NCBI GenBank assembly: GCA_005884925.1
Contig: VAYU01000023.1
Coordinates: forward strand, 1 to 64,000
Direction: 5' to 3'
Length of the DNA: 64,000 nt
DNA from: Actinomycetota bacterium
Lineage (GTDB): Bacteria; Actinomycetota; UBA4738; HRBIN12
In this document: positions 35,257 through 53,449 of the stretch, piece after piece
Position numbering within the stretch: position 1 is the first letter of the stretch
Layout: each line of letters opens with the position of its first letter
Notes under the pieces: generated by a model
The model's input: the letters and a program-made list of their open reading frames with translations, nothing else
Database searches by the model: none
What the model was told of the DNA's origin: nothing
Program-made: the position numbers and the translations under genes

Positions 35257-37608
35257 GTGATCGATGCGGCTCGAGGACTGAGCGCATCCGAGGTCGCGGA
35301 GCGGGTCGCGCGCGGTGCGGTCAACCGGCTCCCACCCTCGCACACGCGGACGTACGGCCAGATCGTCTGGGCGAACGTCCTCACACGTTTCAACGCGCTC
35401 CTCGGCGCCATGCTCGCGATCATCCTGGTCGTCGGCCCCTTCCAGGACGCCCTGTTCGGCTTCGTTCTGGTCGCGAACGCGGCCGTCGGGATCGTGCAGG
35501 AGATACGTGCGAAACGAACGCTGGAACGTCTCACGGTGCTCACGGCGCCGAGGGCACACGTGATCCGCGACGGCGAGGTACGCGTCATCCCGGTCGAAGA
35601 GGTCGTCTCCGACGAAGTGCTCGAGGTCTCGCTCGGCGGGCAGGTCGTGGTCGATGGCGAGGTGCTCGCCGCCGAAGGCCTGGAGATCGATGAGTCGATG
35701 CTCACGGGTGAATCGGACCCCGTCCAGAAGACGCCGGGGGATGCTGTCCGGTCCGGCTCGTTCGGGGTCGCTGGGACGGGACGGTACCGAGCCACCGCGA
35801 TCGGATCGGAAGCCTATGCCGTGAAGCTCGCCGAGCAGGCGCGACGTTTCGCGTTGACCCGCTCCGAGCTCCGCGCCGGGGTCGACCGCATCCTGGTCTG
35901 GGTGACGTGGGCGATCGTGCCGACGGGAGCCCTCCTGTTCATCAGCCAGCTCCGGAGCGATCAGGGCTTGCACCGGTCGATCTCCGGCGCCGTCGCGGGA
36001 ACCGTGGCGATGGTGCCCGAAGGGCTCGTCCTCCTGATGAGCATCGCGTTCGCCGCGGCGGTCGTTCGCCTTGCGCGGCAGCGGGTCCTCGTGCAGGAAC
36101 TGTCGGCGGTCGAGGGACTCGCGCGCGTGGACGTGCTCTGCATCGACAAGACGGGGACGCTCACCGAAGGGAAGCTGGTGGTCGCCTCGGTCTCATCGAT
36201 CGATGGCGGCTCGGTGGAGGAGGCACTCGCCGCGATCGCGAACACGGACGAGCATCCGAACGCAACGTTGCGCGCCATCGCCGCACGGTTCCCGCAGGCA
36301 CCCGAGGGCTGGACCCCTACCGGTACGGTCGCGTTCTCGTCGGGGCGGAAGTGGAGCGGGGCGGCGTTCGGCGACCGCGGGTCGTGGGTGCTCGGCGGGG
36401 CCGACGTGCTGCTGGGCTCCGCGTCGCCGTCGGATCCGGTCCGTGCTCAGGTGGCGCGGGAAGCCGAGGCCGGCAACCGCGTGGTGCTCCTAGCGAAGGC
36501 CACTCACGGGCTCGACGGGGAGCGACTCCCGGCGGGCCTCCGCCCCGCGGCCGTCGTCCTACTCGGCGATGTGCTTCGCTCCGACGTCGCCGATACCCTC
36601 CGCTACTTCGAGGAGCAAGACGTCGCCGTGAAGGTGATCTCGGGGGACGATCCTCTGACCGTTGGGGCGATCGCCGGCCGGCTCGGGTTGCGGGGAGCGG
36701 ATCGACCGGTGGACGCCCGGACGCTTCCCGAGGACGTCGCCGCCCTGGGCGCGGCGCTCGAGGACTCATCGGTGATCGGTCGCGTGTCGCCCGCCCAGAA
36801 GCGAGCGATGGTCCTGGCGCTCAAGCACCGCGGCCACACCGTCGCGATGGTCGGTGACGGCGTGAACGACGCGCTCGCGCTGAAGGACGCCGACATCGGC
36901 GTGGCGATGGGCTCTGGGAGCGACGCGTCACGTGCCGTGGCGCAGGTCGTCCTGCTGGACTCGGACTTCGGCGCGATGCCGCAGGTCGTTGCCGAGGGAC
37001 GGCGCGTCCTCGGCAACATCGAGCGCACATCGGGCTTGTATCTCACGAAGACGGTCTATGCCATGCTGCTCTCGCTCGCGGTCGGCGTAGCGGGGTATAC
37101 GTTCCCGTTCCTGCCCCGGCATCTCACGTTGATCGGCGCCGTGACGATCGGGATCCCGTCGTTCTTCCTCGCGCTCGCGCCGAACACGGATCGGTTCCGC
37201 CCCGGGTTCGTGGGACGGGTCGCGCGGTTCGCGATCCCCGCCGGCACGCTCGCGGCGATCGCGACCCTCCTCGCGTATCAGCTCGCGCTCCGCGCGCCGG
37301 GCGTGACGCTCGGCGAGGCCCGCACGACCGCGGTCATGGCGCTGACGTGGATCGGCCTGCTCGTGCTCTCGATCATCGCGGCGCCGCTCACGCCGCGGCG
37401 GCTCGTCTTGATCTGGTCGATGGCAGGGTTGTTCCTCGTCGTGCTCCTCGTTCCCGCGACGCAGCGGTTCTTCGCGCTGGATCCGCCGGACGACCTGGTG
37501 TGGTTGGCCGCGCTAGGGATCGCGGCGATCGTCTGGTCGTTCGCGCGGCTCTTCGTCCCGGGCGACCGACCGATCGGGCAGCGTGCCCGCGAGGATCCGG
37601 ATCGTTAG
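35257..37608 (+). CDS. P-type cation-transporting ATPase (CtpE-like)
   Basis: A 783-residue P-type ATPase in the inner membrane. It starts with the cytoplasmic motif GLSASEVAERVARGAVNRLP, two N-terminal helices, the actuator-domain motif TGESDPVQKT (~150), helices 3-4, the phosphorylation site CIDKTGTLTEGK (~295), the hinge MVGDGVNDALALKDADIG (~525) and about six C-terminal helices. The order resembles mycobacterial CtpE, linked to calcium uptake; the ion here is unproved. GTG 35257 or GTG 35236 starts it. The stop TAG overlaps the TAA of the convergent BNR gene, and the end is part of a 201-bp tandem duplication. Confidence 0.92.
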   Translation: MIDAARGLSASEVAERVARGAVNRLPPSHTRTYGQIVWANVLTRFNALLGAMLAIILVVGPFQDALFGFVLVANAAVGIVQEIRAKRTLERLTVLTAPRAHVIRDGEVRVIPVEEVVSDEVLEVSLGGQVVVDGEVLAAEGLEIDESMLTGESDPVQKTPGDAVRSGSFGVAGTGRYRATAIGSEAYAVKLAEQARRFALTRSELRAGVDRILVWVTWAIVPTGALLFISQLRSDQGLHRSISGAVAGTVAMVPEGLVLLMSIAFAAAVVRLARQRVLVQELSAVEGLARVDVLCIDKTGTLTEGKLVVASVSSIDGGSVEEALAAIANTDEHPNATLRAIAARFPQAPEGWTPTGTVAFSSGRKWSGAAFGDRGSWVLGGADVLLGSASPSDPVRAQVAREAEAGNRVVLLAKATHGLDGERLPAGLRPAAVVLLGDVLRSDVADTLRYFEEQDVAVKVISGDDPLTVGAIAGRLGLRGADRPVDARTLPEDVAALGAALEDSSVIGRVSPAQKRAMVLALKHRGHTVAMVGDGVNDALALKDADIGVAMGSGSDASRAVAQVVLLDSDFGAMPQVVAEGRRVLGNIERTSGLYLTKTVYAMLLSLAVGVAGYTFPFLPRHLTLIGAVTIGIPSFFLALAPNTDRFRPGFVGRVARFAIPAGTLAAIATLLAYQLALRAPGVTLGEARTTAVMALTWIGLLVLSIIAAPLTPRRLVLIWSMAGLFLVVLLVPATQRFFALDPPDDLVWLAALGIAAIVWSFARLFVPGDRPIGQRAREDPDR

Positions 37609-37969
37609 TGCCCTCCGGCTCCCACCTTCGTCCCAGCGGTCTGGTTGGCCATCACCAATGCACCGGCGGCGTAGTTCCGGTCGTCGGTATACGCCACGTG
37701 GAACGCACCGGCTGCGTCGATCTGGACGTCGATGAAGTCCAGGAGGTTCCGGTTCGTCCCGGGCACGGGACCGATCGGGCAGCGTGCCCGCGAGGATCCG
37801 GATCGTTAGTGCCCTCCGGCTCCCACCTTCGTCCCAGCGGTCTGGTTGGCCATCACCAATGCACCGGCGGCGTAGTTCCGGTCGTCGGTATACGCCACGT
37901 GGAACGCACCGGCTGCGTCGATCTGGACGTCGATGAAGTCCAGGAGGTTCCGGTTCGTCCCGGGCACGG
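37568..37969. repeat. exact 201-bp tandem duplication
   Basis: Unit 1 is 37568-37768 and unit 2 is 37769-37969; I find no mismatch over 201 bp. Each unit carries the last ~13 codons of the P-type ATPase, the overlapping TTAG stop codons of the convergent genes and the last 53 or so codons of the BNR-repeat gene. The length is exactly 67 codons. Thus one extra copy of the junction lies between the genes and both full genes stay intact. Perfect identity means a recent event or an assembly artefact. Confidence 0.95.
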
Positions 37970-42655: not shown

Positions 42656-44566
42656 TTAGGCGATCCGATCCGTTCGCATCGAGGAGACCGCCACCGCGTC
42701 GTCTTCGTCCATCGTCGGGTCGTTGCGGTCGTCCGTGTCGTCTGGAGGCAGCCACACCTGCAAGGTGGTCCCGGCGCCCGGCAGGCTCCGTAGCGTGCAC
42801 CACCCGGCGGCCATCTCCGCCCGCTCCCGCATCGCGGCCATACCGAGGTGACCGGCCGCGGCGACCGCTGCTCCTTCAGGCGTGAAGCCGACCCCGTCGT
42901 CGGAGACCTCCATCGACACGCCGCCGTCTCGCTCCTCCAGCTTCACGACGATGTTGTCCGCGTGTGCATGCTTGCGCGCATTGGTGATCGCTTCCTGCGC
43001 GATGCGGTAGAGGATCACGCGTGTCTGAGTCGAGGGCTCGGTGCCGAGCTCGTCCTCGACGGACCACTGGCTCTCGATCTCCGAGTTCTCTAAGAAGGAG
43101 CGGATCGCGGGTCCGAGGCCGTCCTCGTCGAGGATCGGCGGGCGCAGATCGAACAGCATGTGTCGCATGCTCTGGATCGTCCCGAGGACCGCTGCGCGTG
43201 CGTCGTCGAGTTCCGGCAGTTCCGGGTTCGCCTTCGCGAGCAGTTCGAGGCGCATCTTGAGGACCACCATCTTCTGCACCGGATCATCGTGGATGTCGTT
43301 CGCGATGCGGCGTCGCTCCTCCTCGGCGGCCTGGACCACGTGTGCGAGCAGCCGCCGCCGCTGCTCGTCGATCTCTTCCAGGCTCTTGATGGTTTCGCGG
43401 AGCTCCTCGGTACGCTCGGCGACCTTGACCTCGAGCTCCAGGTTATGCGCGCGGAGCCTCCGCTCGAGCCCCCGGATCGTTTCGAGTTGGGCCTCTCGGT
43501 CCTCCGTCAGCCACGCGTTGTGCAGTGCGAGCGCCGCGTGAGCCACGAACTGACCGACCATCGACACCACCCACCGGCGCATGCCCGTGGTCACCCCTCC
43601 ACGCTCCAGGGCCACGGTCCCCAGTGCGTGGCCCCCTTCGCGGAACAGCGGCACCACGACGACGTTCCGCGCCCCCGGGAGGAGGGCTCCCAGGCGCGGA
43701 TCCGTCGAGGGGTCGATCTGGCGGACCAATCGAGGCGCCCGTTCGGTCCACACGACCTCGACGAGGGGGTCGAGCCCCGGAGGGAGGTCGTCGGGCGTCA
43801 CGTCTTCGGTCGCGGCCAGCACGCGAAGGTCGCCTCCCGGCGAGGCGAGCACGACGCCTCGTTCGAACCCGAACGTGGCGCGGAGCGCTTCCAGCAGGAT
43901 GCGCGGGATCTCTTCGGCCCGGCGACTGGCGTCGATCCGGGCCACCATCGTCGAGAGCGACCCGAGGTCGGCCTTCTGGCGTCTGAGTTGCCGCTCGCTC
44001 GCGGCGGCAGCGGTGGCGGTGCCAAGCGCGAGGAGCCACAACCCTGTGACCTCGAGCGCGGTCGCGATCCCCGAGCCCGAGCCTGCGGCGCGCGACGAAG
44101 ATCCCTCGATGATGCCCGCGTCGATCGAGCCCACGACCAGGAGGAACAGCGTCGTGTGCCACAACGCGATCTTGAGTCCGGTCCGATACGAGCAGAGCAG
44201 CGTGACCGCCACCACGTGGACGTAGATGAGGAACAGGAGCGGGCTCGTGGTCTCGCCCGTGAAGGCGACGACGGCGGCCAGGTAGATCCCGTCGAGCAGC
44301 AAGGCGCCCTGCATCAGGGGAAGGGCCAGCCTGGGGTCTCGACGGAGCGCGACCGGTGCGACGGATACCGCGAGGTAGCCGACGGTCGCGAGGACGATGC
44401 GGCCGATCGGTCCGATGGCGATCGCGGGGGCGAGCGCCACCGATCCGAGGGCGATGAACCCGAGTCCACCCCGCAGCACCGCGAGATACGCGTGGCGCTC
44501 CTCGATGGACAGCAGCTCCGACGGATCGGGCCTCGCCCGCTCACGCCAGGAGCGAGGCACGATCAC
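42656..44566 (-). CDS. membrane GAF-HisKA_3 sensor histidine kinase
   Basis: A 636-residue kinase. Residues ~30-190 hold about six membrane helices, followed by a GAF domain (~205-365; LLEALRATFGFERGVVLAS...NVVVVPLFREGGHALGTVAL), a coiled coil (LERRLRAHNLELEVKVAERT) and a HisKA_3 dimerisation helix with the phosphorylated histidine in RRIANDIHDDPVQKM (~437). The ATPase domain has the N box IAQEAITNARKHAHA and VSDDGVGFTPEG. HisKA_3 kinases usually pair with NarL-type regulators, and a DosR-like one is encoded 2 kb upstream on the same strand. It overlaps the exported gene before it by 4 bp. Confidence 0.93.
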   Translation of the reverse strand: MIVPRSWRERARPDPSELLSIEERHAYLAVLRGGLGFIALGSVALAPAIAIGPIGRIVLATVGYLAVSVAPVALRRDPRLALPLMQGALLLDGIYLAAVVAFTGETTSPLLFLIYVHVVAVTLLCSYRTGLKIALWHTTLFLLVVGSIDAGIIEGSSSRAAGSGSGIATALEVTGLWLLALGTATAAAASERQLRRQKADLGSLSTMVARIDASRRAEEIPRILLEALRATFGFERGVVLASPGGDLRVLAATEDVTPDDLPPGLDPLVEVVWTERAPRLVRQIDPSTDPRLGALLPGARNVVVVPLFREGGHALGTVALERGGVTTGMRRWVVSMVGQFVAHAALALHNAWLTEDREAQLETIRGLERRLRAHNLELEVKVAERTEELRETIKSLEEIDEQRRRLLAHVVQAAEEERRRIANDIHDDPVQKMVVLKMRLELLAKANPELPELDDARAAVLGTIQSMRHMLFDLRPPILDEDGLGPAIRSFLENSEIESQWSVEDELGTEPSTQTRVILYRIAQEAITNARKHAHADNIVVKLEERDGGVSMEVSDDGVGFTPEGAAVAAAGHLGMAAMRERAEMAAGWCTLRSLPGAGTTLQVWLPPDDTDDRNDPTMDEDDAVAVSSMRTDRIA

Positions 44567-45180
44567 GAGAACCCCATCATCTCGGTCTGCACAGGCGCGA
44601 GCGCGAGCTTCGGGTCCCTGCGGTCAAGGCGGTTCTGGACGACGACGAACCCGACGGCGACCCCCAGCAGGGCGAGCACCACGCCGAGGCTGCGAGCGAC
44701 CACGTGGACCGCGCCCGCGACCTGGTCCGCGAAGACCGGATCCTTCGACGGCGGGACCACGCTCGTCGACGGATCGATCGATGAGCCTCTCGAACGCGAG
44801 CCGGCCGATCGTGGGCCGGTCGAACGCGGGATCAGCGGTCCGTGGGCCACGTGCGAGTCCCTCACGACCGGATGACCGGCAGGGCGTTGGCCGCTGTGCT
44901 GGCCGCCACCGCCACCACTTCCGCCCCCGGGCGGAACCGTGATTCCCGGGTTGAGGACCCGGTCGACGGTCCCCTGGGGGTCGTCGGCGATGGACTCGGC
45001 CGTGCCCGTGACGGTGTCGACCGTCTTCGCGACCGTCTCTTGCCCGGATGCTGTGAGATCGGGCACGCTGCATGTCACGTGCAGCGGGTCACAGACCTCG
45101 TCCGCGAAGGCGGGATTCGCCAGAGCGAGCGAGAGTGCTGCGAGCGGAACTGCCGCCAGACGTCGCATCGATCGGGTCAT
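44563..45180 (-). CDS. exported/membrane-anchored hypothetical protein
   Basis: A 205-residue protein. A signal peptide (LAAVPLAALSLALANPAFA) leads to a mature part with one cysteine pair (EVCDPLHVTC), a Gly-rich linker and, near the end, a membrane helix (VARSLGVVLALLGVAVGFVVV) followed by a short basic tail. GGAGG precedes ATG 45180. Overlap of its end with the kinase start (ATGA) suggests that it helps the kinase sense something outside; that is inference. No family recognised. Confidence 0.72.
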   Translation of the reverse strand: MTRSMRRLAAVPLAALSLALANPAFADEVCDPLHVTCSVPDLTASGQETVAKTVDTVTGTAESIADDPQGTVDRVLNPGITVPPGGGSGGGGGQHSGQRPAGHPVVRDSHVAHGPLIPRSTGPRSAGSRSRGSSIDPSTSVVPPSKDPVFADQVAGAVHVVARSLGVVLALLGVAVGFVVVQNRLDRRDPKLALAPVQTEMMGFS

Positions 45181-45220
45181 GGTCTCCACCTCCAGCGGAG
45201 CAGTGCTCCATGGAGAAACC

Positions 45221-46471
45221 TCACTCTCTGGATTCGGTATCCGGGTCGTGTGGCTTGAACCTCGTCGGCATCCAAGTTGGCGGCTTTCCACCCAATTCCG
45301 TGACGGTGAGCGGGTCGCTCACGATGGGACCCTGGATCATCCCGACGCCGAGCCCGAGAAGCTCCTCGAGTTGATCGTCCGAGGCGACGTCGGCAGCGAT
45401 CACCTTCGCCCCAACCTCCGCGGCGCACGCCGTCGCTGAGGCGACGATCGCGTGGTTCGAGAAGCTGTCGCTCACCGACCGAGTGAGGGTGTGGTCGAGC
45501 CGCGCGAACTCCGGAGAGATGGAGAGGAGTTGGCGAAGGCTCGGAAGTCCCGGCCCGATGTCCCGTGCCGAGACGCGGACCCCTCGTTCGCGGAGGGTCG
45601 CGAGCGTCTCACCGAGGTTCACTTCGGCCGGGGTGAGGTCGTCCGCCAGGACGAGGGGGCTGAACCCGAGCACGATGCGGTCGGCGATCGAACGGTTGAT
45701 CGCCCGGCGAAACCTCGCCGTGCGGACCGTCGCGGGGCTCACCTCGAACTCGAGGAACAGCTCGGGGGGGATCTCCCGGAGCGCGCGGGTCGCCGCTCGG
45801 AAGGCGCCAAGCTCGAAGTCGAGCAGCAGGTCTGTCGCCTCGGCGTCCGCGAGCCAGGAGTCGTACGAGCGATGGGGGAGGGTCGCGACCCTCGGTCGGA
45901 CGTCGAATCCGATCGTGCGGCCGGTTCCGAGGTCGACGATGGGATCGAACTCCGCGGTGATCTCGCCGTCCAGGATCGCGCGCGCGACCCGTGGCGCTCG
46001 CTCGTCGCTCACCGAGAGGGGCGGAGAGATGAGGGTGAGATGTGGCGCGGGGGGCGCCGACCATGGCTCGTCGACCGCCCGATGGATCGTGCGGAGGATC
46101 TTCTCGGTGGACTCCGCCTTGCGAACGTAGGCTCGCGCGCCCGCGCTGATCATCCTGATCACGGTGTTCGAGTCCTCGTGCGCGGAGAGCGCGACGACCT
46201 TCGTGGGAGGACACCGCTTGGTGATCTCCCGAACGGCGCGCAGGCCACCTCCGCCCGGCATCCGGACGTCCACCAGCATCACGTCCGGTCGCTCCCGCAC
46301 GGCAACGTCGATGGCTCCTTCGGCGTCGTTCGCCGCTCCCACGAACCGCAGGGTCGGATCGGATCCGATCAACGACCGGAGGACGTCGACGACGGTCTCC
46401 TCGTCGTCGGCGACCGCCACTCGTATCCCAACGGACCCATCGGCACGCTCGGTCGGTAGCACGATGCTCAC
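45221..46471 (-). CDS. receiver-EAL protein with degenerate EAL domain
   Basis: A 416-residue protein: receiver (~12-130) with VADDEETVVD, aspartate in VMLVDVRMPGGGG, lysine in ARAYVRKAES; then an EAL-type domain (~155-405) in which the catalytic motifs are lost: the EVL position reads FDVRP, the asparagine block is FEVSPAT and the DDFGTGYS position reads DIGPGLPS. It probably binds c-di-GMP or a protein instead of cutting c-di-GMP. GGAGG lies just before GTG 46471. A GGGAC-N4-GTCCC element and hairpin stand ~100 bp upstream. Confidence 0.88.
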   Translation of the reverse strand: MSIVLPTERADGSVGIRVAVADDEETVVDVLRSLIGSDPTLRFVGAANDAEGAIDVAVRERPDVMLVDVRMPGGGGLRAVREITKRCPPTKVVALSAHEDSNTVIRMISAGARAYVRKAESTEKILRTIHRAVDEPWSAPPAPHLTLISPPLSVSDERAPRVARAILDGEITAEFDPIVDLGTGRTIGFDVRPRVATLPHRSYDSWLADAEATDLLLDFELGAFRAATRALREIPPELFLEFEVSPATVRTARFRRAINRSIADRIVLGFSPLVLADDLTPAEVNLGETLATLRERGVRVSARDIGPGLPSLRQLLSISPEFARLDHTLTRSVSDSFSNHAIVASATACAAEVGAKVIAADVASDDQLEELLGLGVGMIQGPIVSDPLTVTELGGKPPTWMPTRFKPHDPDTESRE

Positions 46472-46561
46472 GCCTTGCCTCCTTCGCCGTTTCGGAACGG
46501 GAACTGCGCTCACCCAAGACGTTCGGGCACGGGTGCATCCGGCTGGATGGGGCGCTGGGCC

Positions 46562-46593
46562 CGACACCCCGGGACATCCGTCCCGGGGTGTCG
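46562..46593. terminator. hairpin between the DosR-like and REC-EAL genes
   Basis: A perfect 13-bp stem (46562-46574 with 46581-46593), loop CATCCG, starting right after the stop of the DosR-like gene at 46594. It should terminate that transcript. The loop and inner stem contain the GGGACATCCGTCCC element (46571-46584), so terminator and putative operator coincide. Confidence 0.6.
46571..46584. promoter_or_regulatory. GGGAC-N4-GTCCC element (DosR-box-like), copy 1
   Basis: GGGACATCCGTCCC, 100 bp above the start of the REC-EAL gene at 46471. Identical 14-mers lie at 48627 and 52905. The core spacing is the same as in mycobacterial DosR sites (GGGAC, four bases, GTCCC). Confidence 0.5.
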
Positions 46594-47244
46594 TTACTCG
46601 TCGGGGAGCAGCTCGCTCCGAAGCGGCGCTGCGAACAGAGCCGCTTCGGTCCGATGGCGCAGGTGCAGCTTCCTGAGGAGGCCGGAGACGTGGTTCCGCA
46701 CGGTCTTCTCCGAGATGAACAGGCGAGTGCCGATCTCACGGTTCGTCAGCCCCTCGGATAGCAATCCCAAGATCTCCCGTTCCCGGCCCGACAGCTGCGC
46801 GAGCCGGGGGGCGTCAGCTCGATGCGAGCGGAGATACCGGAACATGGTCTGGGCAGATCCCTCGCCGACCACCGAGGCGCCGCCGGCGACCCGCCGGACG
46901 GCATCGACGATCTCGGCGTTCGAGGCCTCCTTGGAGACGAACCCTTCCGCGCCGGCCTTCGCCGCCTCGACGAGCGCGGATCCGTCGGCGAGACCCGAAC
47001 AGACGAGGACCCTCGTGGCGGGAGAGAGGTCGTGGATCTCGGCGCAGATCTCGATGCCGTTGCGATCGGGCAGCCGCACGTCGAGCACGACCATGTCGGG
47101 ACGCAGGTGCCTAGTGAGCGCGAGCGCCTCGCCCCCCGTTCGCGCCTCTCCCACGACGCGCAGGTCGTCCTCTGCCTCGAGGAGCGCTCGGAGACCTTCT
47201 CGGACGAGTCCGTGATCGTCCACGATCAGGATCTCGATCTCCAT
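46594..47244 (-). CDS. DosR/NarL-like response regulator
   Basis: A 216-residue regulator. The receiver (~1-120) has ILIVDDHGLVREGL, aspartate in MVVLDVRLPDRNGIEIC (~55) and lysine in GFVSKEAS (~105). The DNA-binding tail, ILGLLSEGLTNREIGTRLF then ISEKTVRNHVSGLLRKL, closely resembles that of mycobacterial DosR; the DosR base-contacting Lys-Lys-Asn set is K-R-N here, so one Lys is Arg. Sensors of the HisKA_3 type are encoded nearby. ATG 47244 starts directly before the first strand. It sits between two REC-EAL genes. Confidence 0.9.
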   Translation of the reverse strand: MEIEILIVDDHGLVREGLRALLEAEDDLRVVGEARTGGEALALTRHLRPDMVVLDVRLPDRNGIEICAEIHDLSPATRVLVCSGLADGSALVEAAKAGAEGFVSKEASNAEIVDAVRRVAGGASVVGEGSAQTMFRYLRSHRADAPRLAQLSGREREILGLLSEGLTNREIGTRLFISEKTVRNHVSGLLRKLHLRHRTEAALFAAPLRSELLPDE

Positions 47245-47320: not shown

Positions 47321-48502
47321 CTAGCCGGCTTCGATGAAGGCGCTCGCGTCACCCCAGGCGGGCCACGTGCCTGAGCGCGGCAGCGGACCCGGCCGACCGA
47401 GGTAGTAGCCCTGGCCTAGGTGGACGCCGGCGTCCATCAAGGTGCGGAGCTGCTCCGCGTTCTCGACGCCCTCGGCGAGCACCTCGGCGCCGACGCTCGG
47501 AGCGAATCCCACGAGCGCTTCGACGAGGAGGCGGCGGGCCGTGTCCGTCTCGACCCCGCGTGTGAGGGTGAGATCGAGCTTGATCGTGTCCGGTCGGAGA
47601 TGAAGGACATGACGGAGGCTCGCGAATCCCGAGCAGGTGTCGTCGATCGCGAGTCGCACGCCGCGTGCACGCATGGGGGCGAGCGCGTTCGCGAGCCGCT
47701 CGTAGTCGTTCACGGGGGCGTTCTCCGTGATCTCCAGCACGAGCCGGTCGGCCGGTAGGGTCTCGAGCAGGTCCGAAAGCTCAGACGAGCAGCACGTCTC
47801 CGGGGAGACGTTGACACCGAGGAGGATCGACGGGTCGAGCCACTCGAGGCTTCGCACCGCTCGACGAACCGCCGTGATCTCGAGTTCGATGCCGAGCCCC
47901 ACCTCGGCGGCCTCCGCGAACCAGACGTCTGGAGAGCGGAGCGGGTCGGCGCGGAAGCGACAGAGCGCTTCCGCGCCGACCGCCCTCCCGTCCGTGAGGT
48001 CGAAGATGGGCTGATAGACGACATCAACGCCTTCACCGCGGACGACGGCTTCGATCCGTCGCGATCGCTCTCGGCTGCCGAACGGGCGCGTGCCGAACGC
48101 GCGAGGCAGCAGCGCCGCCCACCGTGTGCGCCCGTCGGATCCCTCGATGCACCGGTGGATCGCGTCGACGATCTCGGTCGTTCCCTCGCCCTTCACGAGA
48201 TAGGCCCCTGCGCCGGCTCGAAGCATCGCGCGGATGTCGTTCAAGTCGTCATTGGCCGAGAGCGCGATGAGCGCCGTGCCCGGGCTCACCTGCGCGATCT
48301 CGCGAGCGGCTCTCGGTCCGCCGCCCCGGGGCATGCGGACGTCCAGCAGAGCGACGTCCGGCCGCTCCTGCGCGGCGATCGCGATGGCCTGGTCGGCGTC
48401 GCGTCCCGCGCCGACGAGCGAGATCTGTTCGTCGTCGGCAAGCACCGAGGACAGCGCGTCCCGGATGCCCTCCTCGTCGTCGGCGATCATCACGCGGATC
48501 AT
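47321..48502 (-). CDS. receiver-EAL cyclic-di-GMP phosphodiesterase
   Basis: A 393-residue response-regulator enzyme. The receiver (~1-118) has MIADDEEGIRD, aspartate in VALLDVRMPRGGG and lysine in AYLVKGEG. The EAL domain (~145-385) keeps the catalytic residues: GAEALCRF, GVNVSPE, VLEITENAP, LAIDDTCSGFASL, the lysine in DTIKLDLTL and AEGVENAEQL. It should hydrolyse cyclic di-GMP when phosphorylated or otherwise switched. It is paralogous to the degenerate REC-EAL at 45221. A GGGAC-N4-GTCCC element lies ~125 bp upstream. Confidence 0.92.
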   Translation of the reverse strand: MIRVMIADDEEGIRDALSSVLADDEQISLVGAGRDADQAIAIAAQERPDVALLDVRMPRGGGPRAAREIAQVSPGTALIALSANDDLNDIRAMLRAGAGAYLVKGEGTTEIVDAIHRCIEGSDGRTRWAALLPRAFGTRPFGSRERSRRIEAVVRGEGVDVVYQPIFDLTDGRAVGAEALCRFRADPLRSPDVWFAEAAEVGLGIELEITAVRRAVRSLEWLDPSILLGVNVSPETCCSSELSDLLETLPADRLVLEITENAPVNDYERLANALAPMRARGVRLAIDDTCSGFASLRHVLHLRPDTIKLDLTLTRGVETDTARRLLVEALVGFAPSVGAEVLAEGVENAEQLRTLMDAGVHLGQGYYLGRPGPLPRSGTWPAWGDASAFIEAG

Positions 48503-48549: not shown

Positions 48550-48626
48550 GGCGCCGGACTTCGGCGCCACGGACGTTCTCGGCCGGCGCCGTTGGCCGGG
48601 TGATGGGTCGGAAGCATCAACCGTTC

Positions 48627-48640
48627 GGGACATCCGTCCC
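48627..48640. promoter_or_regulatory. GGGAC-N4-GTCCC element (DosR-box-like), copy 2
   Basis: GGGACATCCGTCCC in the 161-bp gap between the REC-EAL phosphodiesterase and the TetR gene, ~125 bp above the former's start. TTC precedes it, as in the TTC-GGGAC outer bases of DosR sites. The TetR gene ends at 48664, so the element can only serve the phosphodiesterase. Confidence 0.5.
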
Positions 48641-48663: not shown

Positions 48664-49311
48664 TCAGGTGTCGGATGTCGGCGCGGCGACGAAGGCTTCC
48701 ATCTCGGACCTCGTCATCCCCTGCCACGACGCGAGCAAGTGGACCGTGACATCTCGCGCGCGATCCAGAGGCTCGCGAGATCGCTCCACGACGATCGCCG
48801 TCAGAGCGCCCATCGTCAGGAGCCGCAGCCGGAGCCCGATCTCCCGGGGACTCCGGAGGCCGCAGGCGGCCGCGGTTCGAGCGAAGTAGTCATCGACCTC
48901 GTGGATGAAGGCATCGACTTCGAGACGAGCGACGTGGGAGGGTTCCTCGATCTCGGCGAGGGCCTTCAGGTACGGGCAGCCGAGGTATCCCTCCCGCTCC
49001 GCCCAATCGCCCAACCGATCCCAGAACTCCACGAGCGCGCGCGCCGGAGGGATGCGGTCCTCCTCGAGTTCCGCGGTGACCACGTCGATCCAGCGAGCTT
49101 GCGAGCTCCGCAGCCACGCCACGATCAGCTCGTCCTTGGATCGGAACTGCCGGTAGAAGGTGGACTTCGCCACGCCCGCGTGCTCGATCAGGGTATCGAC
49201 GCCCGTCGCTCGGATGCCCTTGCTGAAGAAGAGATCCGCTGCCGCGCCGACGATCCGGTCGCGCGCCTGGGGGGCCGGCCCCTCCTCGTCCGATAACGAT
49301 GAACGGTCCAT
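48664..49311 (-). CDS. TetR-family transcriptional regulator
   Basis: A 215-residue repressor. The N-terminal helix-turn-helix (~18-62) is typical: DRIVGAAADLFFSKGIRATG, DTLIEHAGVAKSTFYRQFRS. The C-terminal ligand/dimer domain (~75-205) has YLGCPYLKALAEIEE as in the TetR_C_6-type branch. ATG 49311 was preferred over the GTG one codon upstream. It diverges from a LysR gene with a palindromic operator candidate (49363-49376) between them. Ligand unknown. Confidence 0.92.
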   Translation of the reverse strand: MDRSSLSDEEGPAPQARDRIVGAAADLFFSKGIRATGVDTLIEHAGVAKSTFYRQFRSKDELIVAWLRSSQARWIDVVTAELEEDRIPPARALVEFWDRLGDWAEREGYLGCPYLKALAEIEEPSHVARLEVDAFIHEVDDYFARTAAACGLRSPREIGLRLRLLTMGALTAIVVERSREPLDRARDVTVHLLASWQGMTRSEMEAFVAAPTSDT

Positions 49312-49362
49312 CACTGGATCCTATCGGTCAGACCCTTCCGTCTCATCCTATCCTCATTTCGT

Positions 49363-50377: not shown

Positions 50378-51847
50378 TTGCATCCATCGCGCGCGAGAGA
50401 GGCCTCGCACACCATCGATACGAATGCGTCTGACCGCGAGGACCGCGAACGCGGGGAACTGGAGACGAGGTTCAAGACCCTCGTCGAGCAGATCCCCGCC
50501 ATCGTGTACGTCTGGAGCGTCAAGGGCAGCCTTGACGAAGTCGTCGAGGAGTTCGTGAGCCCCCAGATCGAAGAGGTGCTCGGCTTCCGGTCCGAGGAGT
50601 GGATGGCGAACCCGTCGCTGTGGATCGATGCCGTGCACCCCGATGATCGGGAGGAAGTGATCGGCGAAACGACCCGATCGGTCGAGGCGGGCGAGCCGTT
50701 CAAGATGGAGTATCGGATGCTCGCCAAGGATGGTCGGATCGTGTGGCTCCACGACGTGGCATCGGTGGTCTCACGGGACGAGCAGGGCAGGGCCACCCGG
50801 TACCAGGGTGTTCAGCTCGACATCACGGCGCGGAAGGAGGCGGAACACGCCCAGCGCCGGATGTTCGAGCGACTCCGCGGTCTGGACGGGCAACGTAGAC
50901 AGCTGCTGATCGGATCGACGAGGACGGAGGAAGAGGAGCGCCGACGGATCGCCGACGACATCCATGACGACACGATGCAGAGGCTGCTGGCGATCCCGAT
51001 GTGGCTGGAAGCTGCGGCGAAGGATCACCCCGAGATCCGGGCCGAGGAGCGGTTCATCAAGCTCCAGGGGGTGGTCTCCGACGCGATCGCGCGACTTCGA
51101 CACCTGGTGTTCGAGCTCCACCCCCGCATCCTGGACGACGAGGGTCTCGTGGCGGCGATCCGTGCGTATCTGGAGGGATGGACCGATCTGGGCGCTTCCT
51201 CCACGTTCGAGATCACGAACGGACTGTCGAAGGAACCTCCCAAGGCGACACGGTTGATCCTGTTCCGCATCGTCCAGGAAGCGCTCAACAACGCTCGCCG
51301 ACATGGCGAGGCGTCGCTCGTCACCGTATCGCTCAACCCTCACGCCGGCGGCTTCGACGTCGTCGTCGAGGACGACGGCATCGGGTTCGACGTCCAGGCC
51401 GCGCAGGCATCCACGCATGGTCATAGCGGGCTCGCATCGATGGCGGAGCGGGCCGAAGTTGCGGGAGGCTGGTGCCGGGTCGAGAGCCGCCCGGGCCGCA
51501 CCACGGTCGAGGTCTGGACACCCGAACGCGTGCCTGAAGATACCCCACCCGGGCCCGAGCGATGGCCTGGTCCCGTGGACGCCGGCGTTGAAGGAGCCGA
51601 GGGGAGCGTCGACCAGATGCTGACGTCTCGTGGCCTTTCGCCCCGGGAGATCGAGGTCGCGCGGCTGCTCGCGCTCGGTCATACGAATGCCGAGATCGCG
51701 GCCAACCTGTACCTGTCGGTGCGCACGATCGAGCACCACCGCGCGAACGTGTTCCGCAAGTTGCGGGTTCACTCACGAGCGGCCCTCGTATCCAAGATGC
51801 GCGAACGTCTTACCCCGGAAGCGGATCGATCCGGTCCGGACGCTTGA
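50378..51847 (+). CDS. PAS-HisKA_3-HATPase-LuxR hybrid: kinase fused to its own DNA-binding domain
   Basis: A 489-residue cytoplasmic protein. PAS (~25-155; IPAIVYVWSVKGSLDEVVEE, RYQGVQLDITARK), HisKA_3 helix with histidine in RRIADDIHDDTMQRL (~193), ATPase domain with N box LFRIVQEALNNARRHGEASL and EDDGIGFDVQ, then a LuxR/GerE helix-turn-helix (~415-475; LTSRGLSPREIEVARLLALG, YLSVRTIEHHRANVFRKLRV). No receiver domain separates kinase and DNA-binding part. TTG 50378 is the first start codon of the frame; ATG starts are lacking upstream of the PAS domain. Confidence 0.88.
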   Translation: MHPSRAREASHTIDTNASDREDRERGELETRFKTLVEQIPAIVYVWSVKGSLDEVVEEFVSPQIEEVLGFRSEEWMANPSLWIDAVHPDDREEVIGETTRSVEAGEPFKMEYRMLAKDGRIVWLHDVASVVSRDEQGRATRYQGVQLDITARKEAEHAQRRMFERLRGLDGQRRQLLIGSTRTEEEERRRIADDIHDDTMQRLLAIPMWLEAAAKDHPEIRAEERFIKLQGVVSDAIARLRHLVFELHPRILDDEGLVAAIRAYLEGWTDLGASSTFEITNGLSKEPPKATRLILFRIVQEALNNARRHGEASLVTVSLNPHAGGFDVVVEDDGIGFDVQAAQASTHGHSGLASMAERAEVAGGWCRVESRPGRTTVEVWTPERVPEDTPPGPERWPGPVDAGVEGAEGSVDQMLTSRGLSPREIEVARLLALGHTNAEIAANLYLSVRTIEHHRANVFRKLRVHSRAALVSKMRERLTPEADRSGPDA

Positions 51848-52904: not shown

Positions 52905-52918
52905 GGGACATCCGTCCC
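52905..52918. promoter_or_regulatory. GGGAC-N4-GTCCC element (DosR-box-like), copy 3
   Basis: GGGACATCCGTCCC, 97 bp above ATG 53015 and 31 bp after the IPT/TIG gene stop. Identical to copies at 46571 and 48627. TCG-GGGAC precedes; CTCG follows. Confidence 0.5.
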
Positions 52919-53014
52919 TCGTTCGGATGACGGACGTCATCTGGGCGCCAGCCGTCGGGCGGTCGAAACTTGAAGCTGATACCCGCCCGCGCACGCCCAC
53001 AGAGAGGGACCGAC

Positions 53015-53449
53015 ATGAAGAAGGTCATGATCGTCGTCGCACTGGTGTCGGCCTTGGCGATCCCGACCGCGGCCGTCGCGGCCGGCCACCGGTCGAGTCA
53101 CAGGGCAAAGTCGGGGGCGTCCGCAACCGCACCCAAGGCCCGAGCGAGTGGCTCGGCCTCTCGATCGGGGGTGACCGTCACCACGAAGCCGTCGAAGAAC
53201 GTTCCCGTGTCATCCAGAACGAAGTCGAAGACCAAGCCCAAGGCGGGGACCCGCCCGGGCGGCAAGCCCAGGGCGAGCGCATCCGGAGGCAACTCCAGCT
53301 CGTCGGTGAAGGTGAAGCCGAACCGCACGGCGGGCACCCCCGACGCGGCCGTGACCGTGACGCAGCACGGTGGCTCGGCGGCGTCCGGGAACCCGGGGCG
53401 CGCCGAGGGCATCGCTCTCCCGGTCTCCATCAACGGGTTCAGTTTCTGA
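53015..53449 (+). CDS. small exported low-complexity protein
   Basis: A 144-residue protein. The signal peptide is VMIVVALVSALAIPTAAVAA (~4-23). The mature chain is Ser/Lys/Pro/Gly-rich, basic and without cysteine (SKNVPVSSRTKSKTKPKAG, GGKPRASASGGNSSSSVKVK), probably disordered in the cell envelope, ending in ALPVSINGFSF. GAGAGGGA lies ahead of ATG 53015. A DosR-box-like element precedes it. A large hairpin follows at 53468-53511. No family recognised. Confidence 0.68.
   Translation: MKKVMIVVALVSALAIPTAAVAAGHRSSHRAKSGASATAPKARASGSASRSGVTVTTKPSKNVPVSSRTKSKTKPKAGTRPGGKPRASASGGNSSSSVKVKPNRTAGTPDAAVTVTQHGGSAASGNPGRAEGIALPVSINGFSF

Follow-up and report, generated by a model that had tools for sequence, protein, structure and literature searches.

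A DosR-like response regulator between two REC-EAL genes: tandem candidate operator sites suggest a local circuit directed at c-di-GMP

The locus described here lies in a window (the whole stretch of DNA analysed) of 64,000 nucleotides from an Actinomycetota genome. A DosR-like response regulator gene stands there between two genes that each encode a receiver fused to an EAL domain, as the first-pass annotation of this DNA had proposed. The genes concerned are the following:

42656..44566, minus strand: HK1, a kinase with an N-terminal membrane domain, a GAF-like middle, HisKA_3 and HATPase_c
44563..45189, minus strand: small protein, secreted or tail-anchored; several relatives have it in the same place, with the EAL gene on one side and HK1 on the other
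45221..46471, minus strand: REC-EAL1, receiver and degenerate EAL domain with most catalytic residues lost
46594..47244, minus strand: DosR-like response regulator of the NarL family, REC and GerE, 216 aa, open reading frame
47321..48502, minus strand: REC-EAL2, receiver and EAL domain, all catalytic residues present
48664-49314: TetR protein, which lies among the boxes described below, as do LysR and HK2
50378-51847, plus strand: HK2, PAS-HisKA_3-HATPase_c with its own C-terminal GerE domain and without a receiver
53015..53449, plus strand: secreted protein of 144 aa, small and rich in Ser and Lys, without a Pfam family, the third predicted target

The regulator displays the NarL-family REC and GerE architecture, and the conserved phospho-acceptor Asp is present (Asp55, from the alignment). 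Its top phmmer match in the PDB is DosR (3c3w, E 2.1e-48, 168 bits), followed by NarL and LiaR/VraR, both at 131 bits, and its identity to DosR amounts to 44%. Its helix EKTVRNHV pairs with EKTVKNYV of DosR, where Lys179, Lys182 and Asn183 make the base contacts in DNA (PMC4082495). The equivalent positions are K180, R183 and N184: the Lys182 to Arg change is conservative and the other two residues are kept, which bears out the earlier view of a DosR-like DNA-binding end with one contact Lys turned into Arg. Residues E179, K180, T181 and N184 are invariant across 28 aligned DosR-like proteins. Since the K..K/R-N pattern is general in the DosR clade, it marks, taken alone, the clade and not a special identity. 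Structural modelling on DosR had also been suggested. The model obtained has an ordinary NarL/FixJ fold (mean pLDDT 84); Foldseek puts LiaR/VraR above DosR, and structure thus does not discriminate between them.

In the phylogenetic tree, the regulator and its orthologue in a sister species (G002) form a long branch just outside the DosR-containing clade. The AU test does not reject joining them to this clade (p-AU 0.25), and likewise does not reject grouping them with the regulators of G024 or G026, which both belong to another family within the order. Most members of the DosR clade are 54-67% identical to DosR, versus the 44% given above. On these sequence comparisons, the regulator is best described as a long-branched DosR relative beside the DosR clade, not an established orthologue. 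No closer DosR relative was found elsewhere in the genus at the thresholds used, and most other genera of the order have a separate DosR-like protein (46-50%).

Gene linkage makes HK1 the probable cognate kinase of the regulator. It had been read as a GAF-HisKA_3 kinase: HisKA_3 and HATPase_c are indeed recognized, but Pfam detects no GAF domain up to E = 1, and the middle region is GAF-like by eye. The best solved relatives of HK1 are DesK kinases, with DosS/DosT matching only its ATPase domain. A DosS/DosT-type partner has two cytosolic GAF domains, with heme in GAF-A; by Pfam, HK1, itself a predicted partner, has no such two-GAF heme sensor, and it carries a membrane domain. These features of HK1, together with the place of the regulator in the tree, do not support a DosR-DosS-type pair.

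The two REC-EAL proteins differ in their catalytic residues. REC-EAL2 has the EAL motif, Asn, Glu, Asp-Asp, Lys, Glu and Gln, as judged from an alignment with 8arv and relatives, and looks catalytically intact, a predicted c-di-GMP phosphodiesterase. In REC-EAL1, the EAL motif, Asn, Glu, first Asp, Lys and base Glu are all changed. These losses are shared by G002, and nearly all of them by another genome of the order, G008, where the Lys stays. REC-EAL1 is under purifying selection (dN 0.10, dS 0.44), and is thus conserved yet, by its residues, catalytically dead. The earlier description of one c-di-GMP phosphodiesterase and one degenerate EAL protein agrees with this. The end of REC-EAL2 lies 77 bp upstream of the regulator start and the two genes are probably co-transcribed, while REC-EAL1 is likely the first gene of an operon that also takes in the secreted-protein gene at 44563 and HK1.

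Candidate operators of the form GGGAC-N4-GTCCC are found before these genes, each with a secondary site nearby; the distances to the starts of REC-EAL1, REC-EAL2 and the gene at 53015 are taken from the box centres, and the sites are given without strand:

46571..46584: box 1, GGGACATCCGTCCC, ~10 bp past the regulator stop and ~107 bp before the REC-EAL1 start
46549..46562: second site of box 1, weaker, GGGCC-CAGC-GCCCC, 22 bp downstream of box 1
48627..48640: box 2, GGGACATCCGTCCC, ~131 bp before the REC-EAL2 start
48605..48618: second site of box 2, weak, GATGC-TTCC-GACCC, 22 bp downstream, 6/10 matches
52905..52918: box 3, GGGACATCCGTCCC, ~103 bp before the secreted-protein gene 53015
52926..52941: second site of box 3, GATGAC-GGAC-GTCATC, 22 bp downstream of box 3

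Boxes with a GGGAC core had already been pointed out on either side of the regulator, and they are exact at 46571 and 48627; the third one, at 52905, was absent from that account. The 2.70 Mb assembly contains three exact copies of GGGACATCCGTCCC, all inside about 6.3 kb (6.35 kb), and seven further GGGAC-N4-GTCCC sites, all inside long open frames. From the background rate of the assembly, the Poisson probability of at least three boxes in 6.35 kb is ~7e-7. Chance occurrence is ruled out by these genome-wide counts together with the conservation described below. The boxes were also considered as copies of a larger repeat, which is rejected since the flanks of the three boxes differ. The spacer of the boxes is ATCC. 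The DosR consensus has a TWWA spacer, and this central TWWA is absent from the boxes here.

The second sites share a fixed position. When 100 offsets were scanned for five boxes, taken from this genome and from G002, +22 bp toward the gene came out as the best offset for consensus match (34/50) and also for palindromy (20/25). DevR promoters have primary and secondary sites, and cooperative binding to them leads to full induction (PMC3029386, PMC7018068). By analogy, the strong/weak site pairs observed here resemble this primary/secondary layout.

Further information comes from the same genus. The sister species G002, whose regulator is 88% identical to that of the present genome (G000), has GGGACAGATGTCCC between the regulator and REC-EAL1, and GGGACATCCGTCCC, same as box 3, before the secreted-protein gene. 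Over the tandem sites of boxes 1 and 3, two of the three, all 40 half-site bases are the same in the two genomes, against 7 changes among the 32 bases of spacers and linkers (Fisher p 0.002). The half-sites of the second site of box 1 are the same in G002; in the second site of box 3, the arms are kept and the spacer has become CAAC. The G002 locus is without REC-EAL2, TetR, LysR, HK2 and most of a TIG-domain gene, and it keeps the regulator and boxes 1 and 3. A 29-residue TIG remnant suggests that this block was lost by G002. Since only the dead REC-EAL1 is retained there, an active phosphodiesterase is no constant output of the locus. The regulator, the boxes and HK1 were not found in G001, a genome of the same genus that is 84% complete. 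Among 397 genomes of the phylum, the box-3-type tandem pattern occurs only in G000 and G002.

Related loci were compared in 27 genomes of the order, most of them incomplete. The gene order that the first-pass annotation had proposed to look for was encountered, as a related arrangement, in G024 and G026. In G024, a DosR-clade regulator (57% identical to M. tuberculosis DosR) is followed by a canonical DosR box, TTCGGGACTTTAGTCCCGAG, and then by a REC-EAL gene. In G026, a DosR-like regulator is followed by the palindrome CGGTACTTCCGTACCG (GGTAC-TTCC-GTACC, ~27 bp past the regulator stop), an EAL gene labelled GAF-EAL from a reading of the sequence by eye, a secreted protein and an HK1 homologue. 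The G026 regulator (locus L230), which accompanies this GGTAC-N4-GTACC box, is without ~20 receiver residues, the phospho-acceptor Asp among them.

Of the other 26 genomes in the order, six contain an HK1 homologue (45-81% identical), and in five of these (G002, G004, G008, G011 and G026) it adjoins an EAL gene. In G004, G008 and G011, the kinase-secreted protein-EAL module has no adjacent DosR-like regulator, which implies that the regulator is either a later addition or one that is repeatedly gained and lost; on this gene-order comparison, the module is probably older, with the regulator joining in some lineages. No EAL gene was found near the separate 46-50% DosR-like genes of the order in the nine loci examined, and in 80 DosR-clade loci across Actinomycetota, covering at most 8 kb on each side, EAL matches were seen only in L110, near the edges and not adjacent. 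Near-boxes (9/10 matches) lie ~150-185 bp upstream of REC-EAL genes in L246 (5608), L247 (3576) and L229 (2995). In the genomes concerned (G004, G008 and G011), they are above background; since they are single, without a +22 partner, and were spotted post hoc, they are excluded as evidence. In L246, L247, L229 and L248, motifs like CCGATACC precede those genes of the HK1 module that encode REC-EAL or secreted proteins; we take them to resemble the sigma-28/WhiG -10 element.

The genes, the boxes, their tandem architecture, the conservation and the EAL residues are all read from the sequence, and they can be assembled into a self-contained two-component circuit made of HK1, the DosR-like regulator, tandem sites, three activated promoters and a REC-EAL2 that lowers c-di-GMP. 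We give this circuit a probability of about 0.65; its predicted parts are binding, activation over repression, phosphotransfer, enzyme activity and operon structure. HK1 would phosphorylate the regulator and, probably, the receiver domain of each REC-EAL protein. The phosphorylated regulator would bind the strong GGGAC-N4-GTCCC box and the weak site 22 bp nearer the gene. Box 2 would serve REC-EAL2 and the regulator (autoregulation), box 1 would serve REC-EAL1, the secreted protein and HK1, and box 3 the small secreted protein at 53015. One signal could thus both make REC-EAL2 and switch it on via its receiver, bringing c-di-GMP down, with REC-EAL1 as a catalytically dead partner.

Several other readings of the same features have to be weighed. 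The regulator might act as a repressor, keeping both REC-EAL genes and the secreted-protein gene silent as long as the signal is absent. NarL-family regulators can activate or repress, and the geometry of the sites alone does not decide; the strong and weak sites 22 bp apart are nevertheless like those of DevR-activated promoters, DevR being an activator, and repression appears unlikely. The boxes might instead serve TetR, LysR, the GerE domain of HK2 or a DosR-clade regulator encoded elsewhere, the DosR-like protein having other targets. TetR, LysR and HK2 do sit among the boxes, and the near-boxes of G004, G008 and G011 precede REC-EAL without a DosR-like neighbour. In G002, however, the locus has none of these three genes and still retains the regulator along with boxes 1 and 3, all half-sites unchanged; the genus has no closer DosR relative at the thresholds used, and the GGGAC half-site suits the K/R/N helix of the regulator and of the DosR clade. 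An assignment of the boxes to another protein is thus rated as quite improbable.

The regulator could also be a true DosR orthologue, concerned with hypoxia or dormancy and served by a DosS-type heme kinase, that lies by chance near c-di-GMP genes. DosR being its best solved match and the non-rejected grouping in the AU test speak for this, but the long branch outside the clade, the lower identity to DosR, the membrane domain of HK1 without DosS architecture by Pfam and the confinement of the only three exact boxes of the genome to this locus all speak against it, and we consider it decidedly improbable. Box 1 is also the centre of a perfect inverted repeat with a 14-bp stem and a 4-nt loop (about -32 kcal/mol), just past the stop codon of the regulator, where it could form an RNA hairpin acting as a terminator or attenuator, the other boxes being chance look-alikes. 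However, no T run follows box 1, and an extended stem is lacking at boxes 2 and 3, which precede other genes; a hairpin also leaves unexplained the three identical, genome-unique 14-mers, their +22 partners and the half-site conservation, so that its likelihood looks very remote.

The proposed circuit shares features with several known systems. Like DosR/DevR of Mycobacterium tuberculosis, which works with DosS/DosT, the regulator is of the NarL type (REC and GerE) with K..K/R-N contacts, and the locus has GGGAC-N4-GTCCC palindromes, tandem strong and weak sites and predicted autoregulation. It differs from M. tuberculosis DosR in the identity of only 44%, the position outside the clade, the ATCC spacer in place of TWWA, the tiny local site set, the N-terminal membrane domain of the partner kinase, and c-di-GMP genes as predicted targets. 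OsdR of Streptomyces coelicolor is another DosR-type regulator; its operator is the palindrome AGGGCCGATCGGCCCT, and the surroundings of the osdR gene itself contain such sites. Unlike the present regulator, it runs a large stress and development regulon, and no REC-EAL targets are met in the consulted passages of its description (PMC5069765). RocR of Pseudomonas aeruginosa (3sy8), which is among the solved matches of the REC-EAL proteins, also has a receiver fused to EAL, and REC-EAL2 keeps the EAL catalytic set; unlike RocR, the genes here lie beside a DosR-like regulator and candidate operator boxes, and one of the pair appears catalytically dead.

In M. smegmatis, c-di-GMP has been reported to be a co-activator of DevR that binds it and enhances its phosphorylation (Hu et al. 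2019, as related in PMC12564702, PMC9514802 and PMC12282275). According to these secondary accounts, c-di-GMP acts there on DevR, whereas the action predicted for the present locus runs from the regulator to c-di-GMP enzymes, and the reported binding to DevR makes a feedback loop conceivable by analogy. The gene arrangement, with partly conserved DosR-type boxes before both EAL genes, points to a possible direct control of c-di-GMP levels by a DosR-type switch. It is a tentative and rather doubtful proposal that a DosR-family regulator directly controls c-di-GMP turnover at this locus, with tandem boxes leading to an active and a dead REC-EAL protein and one kinase activating both the transcription factor and the enzymes, and that a DevR-like boost by c-di-GMP would turn this into a closed negative feedback loop. 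The first-pass annotation knew of no such combination, and nothing similar turned up: in the literature searched (titles, abstracts and passages, few of them from subscription papers), no DosR-type regulator was seen to target c-di-GMP enzymes directly, which does not prove absence.

DosR-type regulators are familiar as switches for hypoxia and dormancy. If true, the proposed control would be the reverse of the M. smegmatis link, with a dormancy-type switch acting on c-di-GMP, and the two links together would close a loop. The compact circuit, with one kinase, one regulator, three promoters and two EAL proteins, offers a way to test how dormancy-type and c-di-GMP signalling may be connected in Actinomycetota. 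The persistence of a conserved but dead EAL protein at a locus without the active one also lends itself to testing.

Two minor features lie elsewhere in the window. A GGDEF motif in a cyclase-like context is seen around 1303 on the minus strand, so that another c-di-GMP gene may sit at the window edge. A 201-bp tandem duplication at 37552-37953, with 98% identity, overlaps the 3' end of the BNR-like gene at 37806.
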